In this document: in pieces, positions 3,071-9,884 of the stretch
Layout of the letters: each line of letters opens with the position of its first letter
Numbering within the stretch: the first letter of the stretch is position 1
Source: Bacteroidales bacterium
GTDB lineage: Bacteria; Bacteroidota; Bacteroidia; Bacteroidales; UBA10428
Direction of reading: 5' to 3'
DNA: 10,729 nt
NCBI GenBank assembly: GCA_016926235.1
Contig: JAFGOZ010000694.1
Location: 1 to 10,729 of the forward strand
Translations under genes and position numbers: made by a program
Notes under the pieces: model-generated
Told to the model about the DNA's origin: nothing
What the model saw: the letters and a program-made list of their open reading frames with translations, nothing else
Databases searched by the model: none

Positions 3071-3092
3071 GTACGAATTGATCAATCCGTAC
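3071..3092. promoter_or_regulatory. 22-bp dyad, operator-like
   Basis: GTACG (3071-3075) and CGTAC (3088-3092) flank the perfect palindrome ATTGATCAAT (3077-3086). The whole 22 bp is symmetric about 3081/3082 except for one A/C pair (3076/3087). It lies 8 bp upstream of a TTTG that could be a Bacteroidota -33 box, and no T-run follows, so a protein-binding site is likelier than a terminator. The binding protein is unknown. Which of the neighbouring genes it serves is inferred from position only. Confidence 0.45.
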
Positions 3093-3100
3093 GTATCTGA

Positions 3101-3132
3101 TTTGTATATTTTCCTTATATAGCGTAATGTTG
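3101..3132 (+). promoter_or_regulatory. Possible Bacteroidota-type promoter for the chromo-barrel gene
   Basis: TTTG at 3101-3104 and TAATGTTG at 3125-3132 are separated by 20 bp. The known Bacteroidota housekeeping consensus is TTTG, 19-21 bp, then TAnnTTTG, so the downstream box matches in all fixed positions but one. Transcription would start near 3139 and give a 5' leader of about 90 nt. The equivalent spacing is not preserved in the second copy of the leader (3688-3786), which lowers confidence. Confidence 0.35.
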
Positions 3133-3134
3133 CA

Positions 3135-3204
3135 GTGTAGTCTTTTTCAACCAGAAGTTTGAAAACTTAAACTATCAATTCAAAAACAACTTTTTAAAAT
3201 ACAT
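3135..3204 (+). repeat. Duplicated leader, copy A (upstream of chromo-barrel gene)
   Basis: This 70-bp stretch is repeated at 3719-3786 upstream of the GLUG protein gene. Shared blocks are GTGTA(G/A)TCTTTTTCAAC, a GAAAA-TTAAAC-ATCAAT block, and an identical 23-bp tail at 3182-3204 (copy B 3764-3786). Weaker similarity extends upstream to a common TTTGTAT at 3101-3107. In this copy, 26 extra bases separate the repeat from the ATG. Likely roles are a common promoter or 5' untranslated region bound by the same regulator. No stable hairpin was seen in it. Confidence 0.8.
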
Positions 3205-3230
3205 ATTATAAACAAATTAAATTAACCATT

Positions 3231-3596
3231 ATGAAAAAATCAGGATTACTTTTAGTTTTTGCATTGTTTCTGTCATCTTTATGTTTCAGCCAAACTAAAG
3301 GGGACAAAGTAAACGTGCTATGGAACGGCCAGGTGTACGCATCAACAGTGCTCGAGGTAAAAGATGGGAAATTCAAGATACATTATGATGGCTGGGGTTC
3401 CGAATGGGACGAGTGGGTTGGAAAAGAAAGATTGGTTTTATGGAAAAAGGGTGATAAAGTAAATGTTTTGTGGAAAGAGAAATGGTATGCCTCAACCGTA
3501 CTTGATTTTAAGGATGGCAAATACAAGATACATTATGACGGATGGTCCGATGAATGGGACGAATGGGTAACATGCGACAGGATTAAGAAAAAATAA
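3231..3596 (+). CDS. Exported protein with two chromo-barrel/Tudor-knot-like repeats
   Basis: This 121-residue protein has a signal peptide (residues 1 to about 20, cleavage probably before Gln21) and then almost nothing but two tandem domains, at residues 24-63 and 74-113. Both read GDKVNVLW, YASTVL, KDGK, KIHYDGW and EWDEWV. The Trp/Tyr-rich pattern 'hYxGW..xWDEWV' is that of the chromo-barrel/Tudor-knot fold known from the eukaryotic MRG15/MOF family, a small five-stranded barrel that often binds methylated peptides or nucleic acid through an aromatic cage. What the bacterial exported version binds is unknown. The copies share 31 of 40 residues, but 16 of those 31 use different codons, so the pair is old and held by selection. 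At the start of the variable stretch the copies differ at a possible cage position (Val35 versus Trp85). No T9SS tail or lipobox is visible, so a periplasmic location is likely. It follows leader copy A and ends at a strong terminator. Confidence 0.85.
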   Translation: MKKSGLLLVFALFLSSLCFSQTKGDKVNVLWNGQVYASTVLEVKDGKFKIHYDGWGSEWDEWVGKERLVLWKKGDKVNVLWKEKWYASTVLDFKDGKYKIHYDGWSDEWDEWVTCDRIKKK

Positions 3597-3612
3597 GAAC
3601 TTTTACAAACTG

Positions 3613-3661
3613 CAATGGGGTTTGTATCAAAATTATATTAGCTTACAAACCCCATTGTTTT
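3613..3661 (+). terminator. Intrinsic terminator after the chromo-barrel gene
   Basis: A perfect 14-bp inverted repeat, CAATGGGGTTTGTA (3613-3626) and TACAAACCCCATTG (3644-3657), has a 17-nt loop and is followed by TTTT at 3658-3661. It begins 16 bp after the stop codon. It should separate this transcript from the GLUG gene, which would then need its own promoter in 3662-3789. Confidence 0.85.
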
Positions 3662-3718
3662 ATAAGAAAATTTTCCCTTTACCAAACTTTGTATTTTGAT
3701 TTTGAGGTAGAAGCTGCT

Positions 3719-3786
3719 GTGTAATCTTTTTCAACAGAAAGTTAGAAAATTTAAACCATCAATAAAAACAACTTTTTAAAATACAT
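3719..3786 (+). repeat. Duplicated leader, copy B (upstream of GLUG protein gene)
   Basis: This is the second copy of the 3135-3204 leader, with similarity reaching up to TTTGTAT at 3688-3694. The last 23 bp (3764-3786) are identical to copy A, and the repeat stops only 3 bp before the ATG at 3790. The intervening terminator and the repeat's position argue that both genes carry the same promoter/leader rather than sharing a transcript. No convincing -33/-7 pair with standard spacing was found in this copy. Confidence 0.8.
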
Positions 3787-3789
3787 ACG

Positions 3790-6700
3790 ATGAAAAAAAT
3801 ACTTTTCCTGTTTTTTGTGGCTGCAATTGTGGTAAGCAATTTGCATGCCCAGCCTTTTGCCGGGGGTGATGGGTCAACGGCCAATCCTTATCAGATAAGC
3901 ACTATAGAAGAGCTCAACAGTGTTCGTAATTACCTGGATTCTTCATTCATTTTAATCAATGATATTGATATGGATGTTGCCCCGTACAATACCGGTAGCG
4001 GCTGGGAACCCCTGGGGAACAACACTGTTAAATTTACCGGCAGCTTTAACGGGGCAGGCCATAGAATTTACAACTTGTATATCAACAGGCCTTCTTCCGA
4101 ATATACAGGGCTGTTTGGTTATGCTTATGAAGCTTTTATTGACAGCCTGGGAATTACGGATTGTAATATATCAGGTTATTTATCTACAGGAAGCCTGGCA
4201 GGAAAGAGTGATTACTCCAACATATCGAATTGTTATGCCACAGGAAATATTTCAGGAAACAGAAATAATACAGGTGGACTGGTGGGAAATATTTATCAAA
4301 CGACTATTTCGGATTGCTATGTCACAGGAAACATATCCGGAACAGGTCGTACAGGTGGCCTCGTAGGAATTAATTATACATCCGCCATTTCGAATTGTTT
4401 TTTCACAGGGGAAGTATCGGGAACCAGTGATTATACAGGCGGCCTGGTGGGAAGTAATTATATAGCATCTACTGTATCCAATTGTTATGCCTCTGGAAAG
4501 GTGTCAAATACCATGAGTTATACAGGCGGACTGGCGGGATATAATTATTCATCTTCAGTAATAACGAATTGTTACTCAACAGGAATCGTATCAGGTTCCG
4601 GAAGCTATGCCGGTGGCCTGGTGGGATATAATTATTCATCTTCAACAATATCGAATTGTTACTCAACGGGAATTGTTCCAGCAGCAGGTAGCTTTGCAGG
4701 TGGCCTGGTAGCAAGGAATAATTCATCATTTATAACAAACTCTTACTATAACACTGAAACGAGCGGACAAAGTTCAGGGATAGGAACAGACAACCTTTCC
4801 CAGGTAGTTACCGGGCTTACTACTGCACAAATGAAACAACAAAGCAGTTTTACAGGATTTGACTTTACTACAACCTGGATTATTACCAATGGAATAACAT
4901 TTCCCCGTTTACGTTCCGTATACAACTACCCTGTCATTTTAAATGATTTTTCATCCAAAGTAAAAATATTTACTGAATACAGGGATACTGCAAATATTGT
5001 TCCCATGGATAACGAAACAGTTACGTTAACATTGGAAAATGCGCCTGCAGGGATGCAATTACAGGATTCTGTTATTACCTGGACACCTGAGGTTGTTGGT
5101 GAATTCGCATTCTTTGTAGTAGCAACAGATGCCAATTTATATGCCTCCAAATCTCCTGCAACTATCATTGTGACACTTAACGGTGAAGGTACTATAAACG
5201 ATCCGTATCAAATTTCCACAATTGATGAACTTAATATTGTGCGGTATTTGCCCGACAGTAATTATATTCTTATGAACGACCTTGATTTTTCAGGAAGCGC
5301 ATACGATAGCATTAACAGTATTGAAGGATGGGAACCAATATGCATATCTCCGGGATTTACTGGAAGCTTCAATGGCGCCGGCCATATTATCAGGAACCTT
5401 TATATTAACAGGCCTTCCTCCGATATTTTAGGACTGTTTGGTTATACTAATGGAGCAGTTATTGACAGCCTGGGAATTACGGACTGCAATATAACAGGTT
5501 CTGACCGTACAGGCGGACTGGCAGGTATAATTGAATCATCCGTTGTTACCAATTGTTATGTCACGGGAAATGTGACCGGAAACGGCAATTATACAGGTGG
5601 ACTGGCCGGAGAGTTCTATTCATGTAATATATCGCATTGTTATGCCTCAGCATATATTTCAGGCACCTATTACACAGGCGGCCTGACAGGACGCAATAAT
5701 ACGTCATCCACTATATCGTATTGTTATGCCACTGGGGAAGTATCGGGGACTAATAACTATATAGGCGGGCTGGTAGGGATTAATTATTCATCATCCACCA
5801 TAACGGATTGTTACTCTACAGCAAATGTTTCAGGGATCTGGTACATTGGAGGGTTGACAGGGGATAATAACTCATCATACATCTCCAATTGTTATGCTTC
5901 AGGAAAAGTTTTGGGATGGAATGATATGGGTGGACTGACAGGATTGAATAGTTTAACAATTATCAATTCCTATTTTAATATTGAAACAAGCGGGCAAAGT
6001 TCCGGCATAGGATATGACAACCATGCCCAGGTAGTAACCGGCCTTACTACTGCACAAATGAAACAACAAAGCAGTTTTACTGGATTTGACTTTTCTACAG
6101 ACTGGACTATTACAAATGGTAAAACCTTTCCTCGTTTACAATCCGTATGGAACTGTCCAGTAATTTTGCCTCTAGAGGAATCCATAATTTTTACCGGGGA
6201 GGAAAATAACGATACCATAAAAGTGATACCTATGGATAACGATATAATTACCTTCACACTGGAAAATGCCCCGGCAGGGATGCATATCCATGATTCCATT
6301 ATTACCTGGACACCTGAGTTTGTTGGCACCTATACATTTTCAGTAGTAGCAACAGACGCCGGTTCTGGTACATCCAGATCCCTGGCAACAGTGTATGTAA
6401 CACTTCATGGTGAAGGTACTGAAGAGGATCCGTATCAAATCTTCACAATCAGCGATCTTTATTATGCCAGGGAATATCCTGACAGCAACTATATCCTTAT
6501 GAACGACCTTGATTTTAGCGGGAGTATATACGACCCTGCCAACAGCACGGAAGGCTGGGAACCTATATGTACACTTATGTCTCCTTTTACCGGAAGTTTT
6601 AATGGTTCGGGACATAGTATCAGAAATCTTTATATTAACAGGCCTTTTACTCCTTTTACCGGGTTATTTGGTTATCTCAGCGGGGCTGTTATTGACAGCC

Positions 6701-8619
6701 TGGGAGTTATAAATTGCAATATAACAGGTTCAGATTATTCAGGTGGACTGGCAGGATTGAGTGAATATTCCGTCATATCGGATTGTTATGCCACGGGAAT
6801 CGTTTCAGGAACCGGTAATTATAAAGGCATCCTGACGGGAGGAAGCTATTCTTCTGCCATATCCCGTTGTTATACCACCGGAGAGGTTTCAGGTTACAAT
6901 TATATAGGCGGTCTGGCAGGAAATAATAATTCATCCGTTACATCAAATTGTTATTCTACAGGAAATGTTTCAGGATACGATTATAAAGGCGGCCTTGTGG
7001 GAGGCAATCAATCATCATCCGGCATATCGTATTGCTATGCCACTGGAAATGTATCAGGAGGCAGTTATACAGGAGGTCTTACAGGATATAATTCATCATC
7101 CGGCATAACCAATTCATACTACAATATTGAAACAAGCGGACAAAGCGCCGGGATGGGATATGATGACAACAGTCAGGTAGTGACCGGGTTTACTACCGTG
7201 CAAATGAAAGATAGTGCCAATTTTGCGGGTTTTAATTTCGTTACAATCTGGGCTATACGTGCCGATAGCACTTATCCTGCTTTACAGGGCACAAACAATG
7301 CCCCTTTCGCTTTTACCGATATTATAACCGGGGCAGCTCAATCGGAATATCTTGATATACTCCTGATAAATGATTATGATTTTGAAACCCTGAAGAATAA
7401 TCTTGTAATTGAAGTAATAGCAGTTGATTCCGGTTACGTGGCTAACAACAAAATATATTTTAAGGAAAATGCCGGCGAAGGTGATACGGTTTATATTACT
7501 TACAGGCTTGGTGAAATACAACCATTAGCTTCCGACACACTTTGGGGCAATATAGTTACAAGCGTACTTAGAAAGAACTTTCCCCCGGCACTTACAGCGG
7601 TAAGCGAGCCTTCAACTTCTGAAGATGAGGCTGTTACTTTATCAATAAACGATTTGACAGCTTCTGATGTTGACGGAAATGCGCTTTCAATTATTGTTCA
7701 TGATGGTAATAACTTCACCGTTACCGACAACACGGTAATCCCTGCTCCCGACTTCAACGGCGTACTTACTGTTCCAGTTTCCGTGACCGATGGCCTTGAT
7801 ACTTCTAATATCATGAACATAAGCATAACCGTGACTCCTGTAAACGATTTCCCGGTACTTTCGGCTGTAAGCAATACCTCAACTTCTGAAGATATGGCTA
7901 TTACATTATCAATAAACGATGTAACGGCTTCTGATATTGACGGGGACGCGCTTACTATTATTGTTTACAATGGCAGTAACTTCACTGTTACCGACAGCAC
8001 TGTTACCCCTATTGCCAATTTTAACGGCGCGCTTACTGTTCCTGTTGCCGTAACCGACGGTCTTGATACTTCCGGTATCATGAACATAAGCATTACCGTG
8101 ACTCCTGTAAACGATGCCCCCGTACTTTCTGCCGTGAGTGATACTACAACTTACCAAGATGTAGCTACTACCTTATCAATAAACGATGTAGCGGCTTCCG
8201 ATGTAGACGGGGATGCCCTTTCAATTATTGTCTATGGTGGTGATCATTACACAGTAACGGATAGTACTGTAACCCCCGCTTCCGGATTCACGGGAACGTT
8301 AACGGTACCTGTAGTTGTAACCGATGGTATTGCTACTTCAAATAGTATGTATATGAGTATTACCGTTAAAGAAGGTAGCGGAATAAATAATTCACTGGCA
8401 GACAATATCCATATTTACCCCAACCCGGTTAAAGATAAACTCTTCATAGAAGGTATGAAAGGATCTGCAACACTTGAAATATGGAATATCAACGGACAGG
8501 TGGTATATGCCGGCAGCATTTCTGCAGGCGAAGCCATTGATGTAAGCAACATGCAGAAAGGCATGTATATTATGGTATTAAAAGATTATGGCGTGAGGGA
8601 GAAAATAAATATTTATTAG
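3790..8619 (+). CDS. Giant secreted GLUG-repeat protein with cadherin-like repeats and T9SS type A sorting domain
   Basis: This is a 1609-residue predicted cell-surface or secreted protein. It has a signal peptide at 1-20 (...LHA before Gln21). Three large modules start near residues 25, 465 and 874. Each opens with a (G-T)-x-(N/D)PYQI-T segment and an FTGSFNG-GH-I-NLYINRP segment. A ladder of GLUG motifs follows (consensus GGLvG...ISnCYaTG-VSG, period 27-29 residues): 7, 6 and 5 copies in turn. Each module closes with an SGQS-G / TTAQMK cap. Modules 1 and 2 then carry a putative Ig (He_PIG-like) domain at about 381-463 and 790-873 (ENAPAGM, ITWTPE, VVATDA). An unassigned segment covers 1168-1262. 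Three 89-residue cadherin-like repeats (about 1265-1527, with SEDxA and ASD(V/I)DG(D/N)AL) follow. A T9SS type A sorting domain (about 1536-1609, IYPNPVKDKLFIEG) ends the protein. Export across the inner membrane by Sec and across the outer membrane by T9SS is expected. Adhesion or matrix binding is plausible from the architecture but not shown. No catalytic domain was recognised. Confidence 0.93.
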   Translation: MKKILFLFFVAAIVVSNLHAQPFAGGDGSTANPYQISTIEELNSVRNYLDSSFILINDIDMDVAPYNTGSGWEPLGNNTVKFTGSFNGAGHRIYNLYINRPSSEYTGLFGYAYEAFIDSLGITDCNISGYLSTGSLAGKSDYSNISNCYATGNISGNRNNTGGLVGNIYQTTISDCYVTGNISGTGRTGGLVGINYTSAISNCFFTGEVSGTSDYTGGLVGSNYIASTVSNCYASGKVSNTMSYTGGLAGYNYSSSVITNCYSTGIVSGSGSYAGGLVGYNYSSSTISNCYSTGIVPAAGSFAGGLVARNNSSFITNSYYNTETSGQSSGIGTDNLSQVVTGLTTAQMKQQSSFTGFDFTTTWIITNGITFPRLRSVYNYPVILNDFSSKVKIFTEYRDTANIVPMDNETVTLTLENAPAGMQLQDSVITWTPEVVGEFAFFVVATDANLYASKSPATIIVTLNGEGTINDPYQISTIDELNIVRYLPDSNYILMNDLDFSGSAYDSINSIEGWEPICISPGFTGSFNGAGHIIRNLYINRPSSDILGLFGYTNGAVIDSLGITDCNITGSDRTGGLAGIIESSVVTNCYVTGNVTGNGNYTGGLAGEFYSCNISHCYASAYISGTYYTGGLTGRNNTSSTISYCYATGEVSGTNNYIGGLVGINYSSSTITDCYSTANVSGIWYIGGLTGDNNSSYISNCYASGKVLGWNDMGGLTGLNSLTIINSYFNIETSGQSSGIGYDNHAQVVTGLTTAQMKQQSSFTGFDFSTDWTITNGKTFPRLQSVWNCPVILPLEESIIFTGEENNDTIKVIPMDNDIITFTLENAPAGMHIHDSIITWTPEFVGTYTFSVVATDAGSGTSRSLATVYVTLHGEGTEEDPYQIFTISDLYYAREYPDSNYILMNDLDFSGSIYDPANSTEGWEPICTLMSPFTGSFNGSGHSIRNLYINRPFTPFTGLFGYLSGAVIDSLGVINCNITGSDYSGGLAGLSEYSVISDCYATGIVSGTGNYKGILTGGSYSSAISRCYTTGEVSGYNYIGGLAGNNNSSVTSNCYSTGNVSGYDYKGGLVGGNQSSSGISYCYATGNVSGGSYTGGLTGYNSSSGITNSYYNIETSGQSAGMGYDDNSQVVTGFTTVQMKDSANFAGFNFVTIWAIRADSTYPALQGTNNAPFAFTDIITGAAQSEYLDILLINDYDFETLKNNLVIEVIAVDSGYVANNKIYFKENAGEGDTVYITYRLGEIQPLASDTLWGNIVTSVLRKNFPPALTAVSEPSTSEDEAVTLSINDLTASDVDGNALSIIVHDGNNFTVTDNTVIPAPDFNGVLTVPVSVTDGLDTSNIMNISITVTPVNDFPVLSAVSNTSTSEDMAITLSINDVTASDIDGDALTIIVYNGSNFTVTDSTVTPIANFNGALTVPVAVTDGLDTSGIMNISITVTPVNDAPVLSAVSDTTTYQDVATTLSINDVAASDVDGDALSIIVYGGDHYTVTDSTVTPASGFTGTLTVPVVVTDGIATSNSMYMSITVKEGSGINNSLADNIHIYPNPVKDKLFIEGMKGSATLEIWNINGQVVYAGSISAGEAIDVSNMQKGMYIMVLKDYGVREKINIY
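3862..7287 (+). repeat. Three large tandem GLUG modules within the coding sequence
   Basis: Module boundaries are about 3862-5181, 5182-6408 and 6409-7287. GGLxG motifs start at residues 134, 162, 189, 217, 246, 275, 304 in module 1, at 575, 603, 630, 659, 687, 714 in module 2, and at 985, 1013, 1040, 1067, 1095 in module 3. Degenerate copies are GSLAG at 134, GGLVA at 304 and GILTG at 1013. Modules 1 and 2 share 38 identical bases at 4816-4853 and 6043-6080, which suggests fairly recent duplication or gene conversion. Module 3 is the most divergent in this cap and lacks the Ig-like domain. Confidence 0.9.
7582..8370 (+). repeat. Three 89-residue cadherin-like (tandem-95 type) repeats within the coding sequence
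   Basis: The units are 7582-7848, 7849-8115 and 8116-8370. Each carries PxLxAVS, SINDxxASDxDG, a TVTDxTV strand, GxLTVPV and VTDG. The DxDGxAL motif resembles the calcium-binding loops of bacterial cadherin-like domains. Units 1 and 2 have exactly the same length and share most residues; unit 3 is more divergent (Tyr-Gln-Asp where SED occurs in the others). Confidence 0.85.
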
Positions 8620-8755: not shown

Positions 8756-8825
8756 AAAAATTCATCCGATGACTCTAAGGTCAATTGAAAACATAAAGAA
8801 ACAACTAAAAAGTCATCGGATGAAT
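8756..8825 (-). terminator. Probable terminator of the convergent gene, or paired palindromic sites
   Basis: A perfect 15-bp inverted repeat (ATTCATCCGATGACT at 8760-8774, complement at 8811-8825) has a 36-nt loop. Read on the minus strand it is followed by TTTTT (complement of 8756-8760), and it lies 31 bp beyond the stop of the minus-strand gene, so it fits a terminator. Each arm also contains an 11-bp palindrome, TCATC-C/G-GATGA. Near-direct repeats GTGTCATTTTAG (8731-8742) and GTGACATTTTAG (8831-8842), 100 bp apart, flank it. An operator pair or a miniature mobile element are therefore alternatives. Confidence 0.55.
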
Positions 8826-8855: not shown

Positions 8856-9884
8856 TCAGCGCAATTTTCTAGAATAGCTAAAAATGGGCATTCCGAAGAA
8901 AAAATCAGGGTCTCCTGTATACACCTCCCAGCCCGAATTGTTATACTCTTCAGGTATATCATAGTGGTCATGTATAAACCACCACAAAGCGCATACAGAC
9001 CAACTTGCCCTCGGATTCTTTTTCTTTATAAAACGAAATCCCGTTATACCAAAAGCCACACTACTTAGCTTTGAAAATTGTTCAATTACTTCTGGATTTT
9101 GTGGTGGTAACTTCCTTGCTTCTGATCGTGTATTCAATTGAAAGAAATAATTTTCAGTTACAAAAAAGGAATAATCAGAAGTTCTGGCTTGTGCGGAAAA
9201 AGTTACTGCAGGTCTGTGTGCAGTTATAACAATATCATCGTTCAGATAGGACGAAAAGAGTCCGCCCCCAACACTGAAGTTATTCATTTTAGTTCCATGG
9301 GTGTATATTCCATATGCCAGGTTTCCCAAAAATTGAGATTTAAAAGGATAGCCTCCTGCTAAATCTCCAATAGCAAAAGCAGATTTATCATTTATTGGAA
9401 AAGAGTATTGAGGGATAGCATAATATATTGCAGGGATTATAAAGGTGCCCGCTGTGAGGCTAAAATGGTCATTAATACCATACTTCCATTCATGGATCAT
9501 ATAAAATATGTTATTATAATAAAGAGATTTTTTCTCTATAGCAAATGCATTGGGAGCAAAAATATAGTGGTGACCATGTGAATCTTCCAGATCATTATAC
9601 ATTTCCTCAGATATGAAATAGTCAATTTTCGAGCTTCCGGGTACAAAAACAACACATTTAGTGTCAATGGTATCATATTCATAGCCCATTACCTTTTCCG
9701 TTTTTATACTTGTTGACATCCACTTCCAATGCACCATCATCTCAAAGTGGATACGTGTATCTGTTATACTGTCAATGTGGCATGCAATGGAATCGCCATC
9801 ATTAGTAACTATAAGATCATAGTTTTGCGCATTAACAAGGTTTGAGATAATAATCAGGAATGCAATAGACGTTAGCTTTTTCAT
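8856..9884 (-). CDS. Exported protein of unknown function, possible outer-membrane barrel
   Basis: I do not recognise a named family. The longest frame opens at 9914, but the start is set at 9884 (342 residues). That gives a textbook signal peptide (MKKLTSIAF...NLVNA, cleavage before Gln20), and AGAAGGA, a good Shine-Dalgarno sequence, lies just upstream. After cleavage, residues 22-50 (DLIVTNDGDSIACHIDSIT) match a short N-terminal pattern seen in many Bacteroidota exported proteins of unknown role. From about residue 120 to the end there are alternating aromatic/polar strands with glycine-rich turns (GDLAGGYPF, FSVGGGLFSSYL, SVAFGITGFRF), ending in an aromatic-rich strand. This is consistent with a small outer-membrane beta-barrel, but that is inference. 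It has no T9SS tail. It stands alone, convergent with the GLUG gene; the gene beyond it is on the same strand but 537 bp away. Confidence 0.8.
   Translation of the reverse strand: MKKLTSIAFLIIISNLVNAQNYDLIVTNDGDSIACHIDSITDTRIHFEMMVHWKWMSTSIKTEKVMGYEYDTIDTKCVVFVPGSSKIDYFISEEMYNDLEDSHGHHYIFAPNAFAIEKKSLYYNNIFYMIHEWKYGINDHFSLTAGTFIIPAIYYAIPQYSFPINDKSAFAIGDLAGGYPFKSQFLGNLAYGIYTHGTKMNNFSVGGGLFSSYLNDDIVITAHRPAVTFSAQARTSDYSFFVTENYFFQLNTRSEARKLPPQNPEVIEQFSKLSSVAFGITGFRFIKKKNPRASWSVCALWWFIHDHYDIPEEYNNSGWEVYTGDPDFFFGMPIFSYSRKLR

Follow-up and report, generated by a model that had tools for sequence, protein, structure and literature searches.

Two near-identical copies of a non-coding leader of about 75 bp lie close together, in direct orientation and 584 bp apart, before two different genes of a 10,729-nucleotide stretch of DNA (the window, by which we mean the whole stretch analysed). 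In our estimate there is a probability of roughly 55% that ordinary local duplication of this leader gives the two adjacent genes a common 5′ region and that they are co-regulated. The leader would have been copied locally, by duplication or by gene conversion over about 0.6 kb, and two neighbouring genes that are probably transcribed separately, and that probably encode exported proteins, would thereby have the same region before their starts. The leader itself could be a functional operator and/or an A/U-rich 5′ untranslated region, with selection keeping the copies similar, and the genes behind it, encoding a chromo-barrel protein and a GLUG-repeat protein, would then share their regulation. 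The most likely regulator of both leaders would be the adjacent TPR-AraC protein; that it does regulate both is a guess from adjacency alone, and we put it forward tentatively.

By protein comparison, the genes of this 10.7-kb contig encode proteins of a Bacteroidota bacterium. The nearest other proteins are 81% identical for the SDR dehydrogenase, 64% for the TPR-AraC protein and 60% for the chromo-barrel protein, and 10 of the 11 organism names among the 120 SDR relatives listed are Bacteroidota (Bacteroidetes, Bacteroidales or Bacteroides), the remaining one being Marinimicrobia. The AraC-type regulator gene is found directly upstream of the leaders on the same strand (Table 1), and a hydrophobic stretch can be seen by eye between the TPR and HTH_18 parts of its product. 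The chromo-barrel protein is probably exported, as judged by eye from its signal-peptide-like start. The coding regions behind the two leaders had been described in the first-pass annotation as unrelated, which agrees with the different Pfam domains of the two proteins (chromo-barrel versus GLUG/Ig). The GLUG gene carries a sign of internal duplication, namely three modules with a period of 1.2-1.3 kb at 4032-7313; near its end, at 7584-8384, there are three 267-nt modules, of which the later two are 81% and 68% identical to the first.

Table 1. Features of the window and the basis on which each was placed.
Feature	Position	Strand	Basis and remarks
SDR dehydrogenase	249-1022	minus	ORF list and domain scan
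TPR + AraC-type (HTH_18) protein, 600 aa	1216-3018	+	ORF list, Pfam; candidate regulator
Leader copy 1, before chromo-barrel gene	3131-3205	+	Window self-comparison, alignment; 81.2 bits to two-copy model
Weak inverted repeat, copy 1: TTTTCAAC ... GTTtGAAAA	3144-3165	+	By eye; fold -3.0 kcal/mol, z -0.50
Tail of leader copy 1, 24 bp, identical in copy 2	3182-3205	+	Mismatch search
Protein with two chromo-barrel (MSL3_chromo-like/Tudor-knot) domains, 121 aa	3231-3596	+	ORF list, domain matches
Terminator-like hairpin: 15 pairs, 17-nt loop, terminal run of four U	3612-3658	+	Fold -22.3 kcal/mol, z -6.02
Leader copy 2, before GLUG gene	3715-3787	+	Window self-comparison, alignment; 75.0 bits to two-copy model
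Weak inverted repeat, copy 2: TTTTCAAC ... GTTaGAAAA	3728-3749	+	By eye; fold -2.6 kcal/mol, z -1.07
Tail of leader copy 2, 24 bp	3764-3787	+	Mismatch search; ends 2 nt before GLUG ATG
GLUG-repeat/bacterial Ig/cadherin-like protein with type IX sorting tail (Por_Secre_tail), 1609 aa	3790-8619	+	ORF list, Pfam

The leader had been noticed as a sequence of about 70 bp occurring before both genes; the repeat is real and slightly larger, with the limits given in Table 1. Alignment of the two copies scores 102, compared with a maximum of 42 among 2000 dinucleotide-shuffled pairs of the upstream regions, and each half of the leader is found at exactly two places in the window (0.00 expected) in a search allowing up to three mismatches. 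Among the ten pairings of five 110-nt start regions, the leader pair scores 102 and the remaining nine score 14-24. The leader was not found in the three remaining start regions, including that of orf 8856-9884, whose start also resembles a signal peptide by eye. Columns 1-51 of the alignment contain eight substitutions and a 2-bp gap, and are followed by 24 identical columns, with the sequence AAAAACAACTTTTTAAAATACATA. This tail had been given as 23 bp; its identity stands and its length is corrected to 24 bp. The lack of changes in the last 24 bp, compared with eight substitutions upstream (Fisher p = 0.047), gives a weak indication that sequence close to the start codons is constrained. With two copies, selection and recent common origin cannot be told apart. 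From the end of the tail it is 25 nt to the chromo-barrel ATG at 3231 and 2 nt to the GLUG ATG at 3790, and this difference of 23 nt argues against a fixed role in translation start.

The two genes are separated by a hairpin (3612-3658) that had been described as a strong terminator. The hairpin itself is strong (z -6.0), but it can only be called terminator-like, as its U run is short and it was not listed by the terminator pattern scan, which allows loops of 3-8 nt and was thus unable to accept a loop of 17 nt, or a U run of this length. Reading it as a terminator is our inference; on this reading the GLUG gene is most likely transcribed from a promoter of its own, located between about 3660 and the ATG. 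One control for the two secreted-protein genes, as had been proposed, is plausible, because the repeat immediately precedes both starts, the hairpin separates the genes and three other start regions lack the repeat.

The Bacteroidota sigma-A -7 consensus is given as TAnnTTTG in the relevant part of PMC6847099, and no full box of this form was found before either gene; the best sites match five of the six fixed positions and stand at different offsets. Sites of the same quality also occur in other upstream regions (both intergenic regions and others were scanned). It is a conjecture that transcription proceeds from -7 candidates at 3105 and 3684, with predicted starts at 3117 and 3696, in which case the leader would be transcribed and the untranslated regions would be about 114 and 94 nt long. 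These would be long by comparison with the median 5′ untranslated regions of 24 and 32 nt that a passage of PMC9723704 reports for two Bacteroidota. A near-perfect 22-bp palindrome, GTACGAATTGATCAATCCGTAC (10 of 11 pairs, 3071-3092), follows the TPR-AraC gene and precedes leader copy 1; the window has three sites like it, and 40 Markov-resampled sequences have 0.225 on average. None of that quality (10 of 11 pairs) stands before leader copy 2; the palindrome is a possible operator, standing before copy 1 only. Several points count against local copying of a regulatory leader as the best explanation: no full -7 box was found before either gene, the leader stands 23 nt farther from the ATG in one gene than in the other, and the palindrome is present at copy 1 only.

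Local regulators of the AraC type can be encoded beside their targets and act on similar non-coding operator blocks before adjacent target genes. The present arrangement is comparable in having similar blocks before adjacent genes with a regulator gene next door; the known sites are short, however, whereas the leader match, a candidate operator, extends over 75 bp with few differences. Should the leader truly act as an operator, the two probably exported proteins behind it would be marked as functional partners in an uncultured Bacteroidota lineage, and it would offer a direct target on which a TPR-AraC regulator could be tested. If it is no more than a recent local duplication, the event is an ordinary one with little wider meaning. 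A precedent for copying of regulatory DNA is known as horizontal regulatory transfer. Passages of PMC9944727, which cite Oren et al. 2014, use this term, or “regulatory switching”, for intergenic regulatory regions that are duplicated or transferred. As is proposed here, non-coding regulatory DNA is copied or moved independently of the gene that follows; unlike the cases in those passages, the present copy lies 584 bp away within one contig. For the protein behind copy 1, passages of PMC5906684 describe bacterial chromo-like domains, reported also from bacteroidetes, that are consistently secreted and have been suggested to bind envelope or matrix peptides. The copy-1 protein is similar to these in its signal-peptide-like start and its tandem chromo-like domains, and common control of such a protein and a large surface protein would make sense given that view. 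Those passages treat the proteins, not leaders, and the leader is absent from the 10 relatives that we compared.

The most probable alternative, which we nevertheless consider rather unlikely, is that the leader or operator is host-wide, at the level of the species or genus, standing before many exported-protein genes of which the window contains two members of the regulon. That both genes probably encode exported proteins is in keeping with it. The absence of the leader from three other start regions of the window, including the signal-peptide-like orf 8856-9884, speaks against it, and so does the length of the match. Binding sites are usually shorter than 24 identical bp within a 75-bp match. 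Further copies were searched for with a sequence-only model built from both leaders, to which the two copies score 81.2 and 75.0 bits by construction. Among 395 Bacteroidia genomes, drawn evenly and searched with stricter filters, where at most 12 first-look candidates were scored per genome, often out of hundreds, 32 had a match at E ≤ 0.01, the best at 21.9 bits. The nominal expectation is about 4 genomes, and the excess is attributed, without formal control, to rough E-values and A/T-rich sequence. Fifteen of the 32 matches were re-aligned and are read as chance, since 12 of them fall within open frames of more than 450 nt. A set of 34 chosen genomes (33 of which come from the 395 first drawn, for the SDR search), with up to 142 candidates scored in each, gave four with a match, the best at 21.6 bits. 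Exact leader patterns have no occurrence in genome_contigs or viral_contigs, and blastn against plasmids gave weak, partial hits in five records, all from unrelated organisms, with a best E of 9e-3. No convincing third copy was found among the candidates scored in the 395 Bacteroidia genomes, where the best 21.9 bits compare with 81 and 75 for the true copies. A related double chromo-barrel gene is present in 10 of 178 Bacteroidia genomes, and the leader is absent before all 10, as their upstream 200 nt score 10-25 versus 102. Nor do the upstream 110 nt of these relatives recur in the surrounding 12-17 kb beyond the best of 20 shuffles. No description of this leader was found in the titles and abstract openings of open-licence papers searched for such leaders or for these proteins.

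The lack of a convincing third copy, in the 395 genomes and before the 10 related chromo-barrel genes, fits a local event. The genomes searched are distant from the host, and the negatives count against a class-wide leader and not against a genus- or species-wide one; for the host-wide alternative they are a weak test, the best SDR identity being 44% compared with 81% for the closest protein. At E ≤ 1e-60 no SDR relative was found in 395 genomes, and at E ≤ 1e-49 there were relatives in 39 of 325, with a best identity of 44%; at E ≤ 1e-62, the counts by order were 0 of 36, 1 of 64 (44%), 0 of 179 and 0 of 7 genomes. TPR-AraC relatives at E ≤ 1e-45 were found in nine of 345 genomes, with identities of 28-36%, and none at E ≤ 1e-58 in two genomes; the genome draws for the SDR and TPR-AraC searches overlap. 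Among 16 stretches of genome_contigs, two distant relatives of the locus were found by protein, and chromo-barrel alignment to 71 stretches of viral_contigs found no relative. Four of the nine genomes with strong TPR-AraC relatives (G160, G097, G190 and G060, among the 345) belong to a single seven-genome order, and this type of regulator may be unevenly spread.

It is unlikely that the repeat is the relic of a tandem duplication, in which a unit of leader plus chromo-barrel gene was doubled, the body of the second gene then being lost or giving way to the GLUG gene and the leader staying behind as an unselected by-product. The direct orientation of the copies, which flank one gene plus the hairpin at a distance of 584 bp, would suit such a history, and alignment of the sequence that follows the repeat and continues into the coding starts does beat mononucleotide shuffles (p = 0.0025). 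However, an ungapped comparison of the first 75 nt of the chromo-barrel and GLUG coding regions gives only 45% identity, and their 66-nt coding starts score 26, while the chromo-barrel start scores 23 with the unrelated orf 8856-9884. As these scores are almost alike, the likeness on the 3′ side is ascribed to signal-peptide starts beginning ATGAAAAAA, and is probably that of two ATGAAAAAA signal peptides. On the 5′ side, scattered identity had been proposed up to a shared TTTGTAT. This does not hold, as alignment of the 40 nt on the 5′ side of each copy does not beat mononucleotide shuffles (p = 0.21, 5000 shuffles), and TTTGTAT recurs at 3621, within the stem of the intergenic hairpin.

A structured regulatory RNA, riboswitch-like or an attenuator, in both 5′ untranslated regions is very unlikely. 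Both leader copies retain an inverted repeat, TTTTCAAC...GTTNGAAAA, which may be operator-like or a weak hairpin; as RNA it can be drawn in each copy as a small hairpin that has one bulge and a loop of 5 nt. Its folding is nevertheless weak (z -0.50 and -1.07), and its stem pairs are identical between the copies, leaving no covariation. Neither a stable fold nor a known structured-RNA family was found, as the leader matches no Rfam family and folds no better than shuffles (z +0.46 to +1.13). A leader peptide was also considered and rejected: by eye, copy 1 read from 3127 gives a short ORF, but copy 2 lacks both its ATG and its stop, and the differences between the copies mostly change residues.

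It would be highly improbable that the leader copies bracket an “expression slot”, in which exported-protein genes with their terminator are gained and lost as units by recombination between leaders. The unit would here be the 584 bp of leader, chromo-barrel gene and hairpin, and any gene in the slot would come under the same control by the neighbouring regulator. The suggestion in the first-pass annotation of a mobile regulatory cassette, whether a promoter-carrying miniature element or an insertion site, is scarcely probable at all and finds no support. The edges of the repeat are clear, which would suit it, but of the 45 inverted pairs with arms of at least 16 nt, the 25 listed include none that bounds either copy, a recombinase domain is absent from the five proteins scanned, and no convincing extra copy was found in the searches of the 395 Bacteroidia genomes, genome_contigs, viral_contigs or plasmids. 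Where dispersed MITE-like copies were looked for, in the window and the 395 distant genomes, two leader copies were found.

The window contains further repeats. At 111-152, on the downstream side of the SDR gene and among several GCCCTGAAAGGGC-like stretches, there is an inverted repeat with 21-nt arms (95%) and no spacer, which resembles an intergenic palindromic repeat or a terminator. Two exact inverted arms of 14 nt, TTCATCCGATGACT and AGTCATCGGATGAA, were seen by eye at 8761-8774 and 8811-8824; 36 nt separate them, and they lie after the GLUG gene and before the next one.
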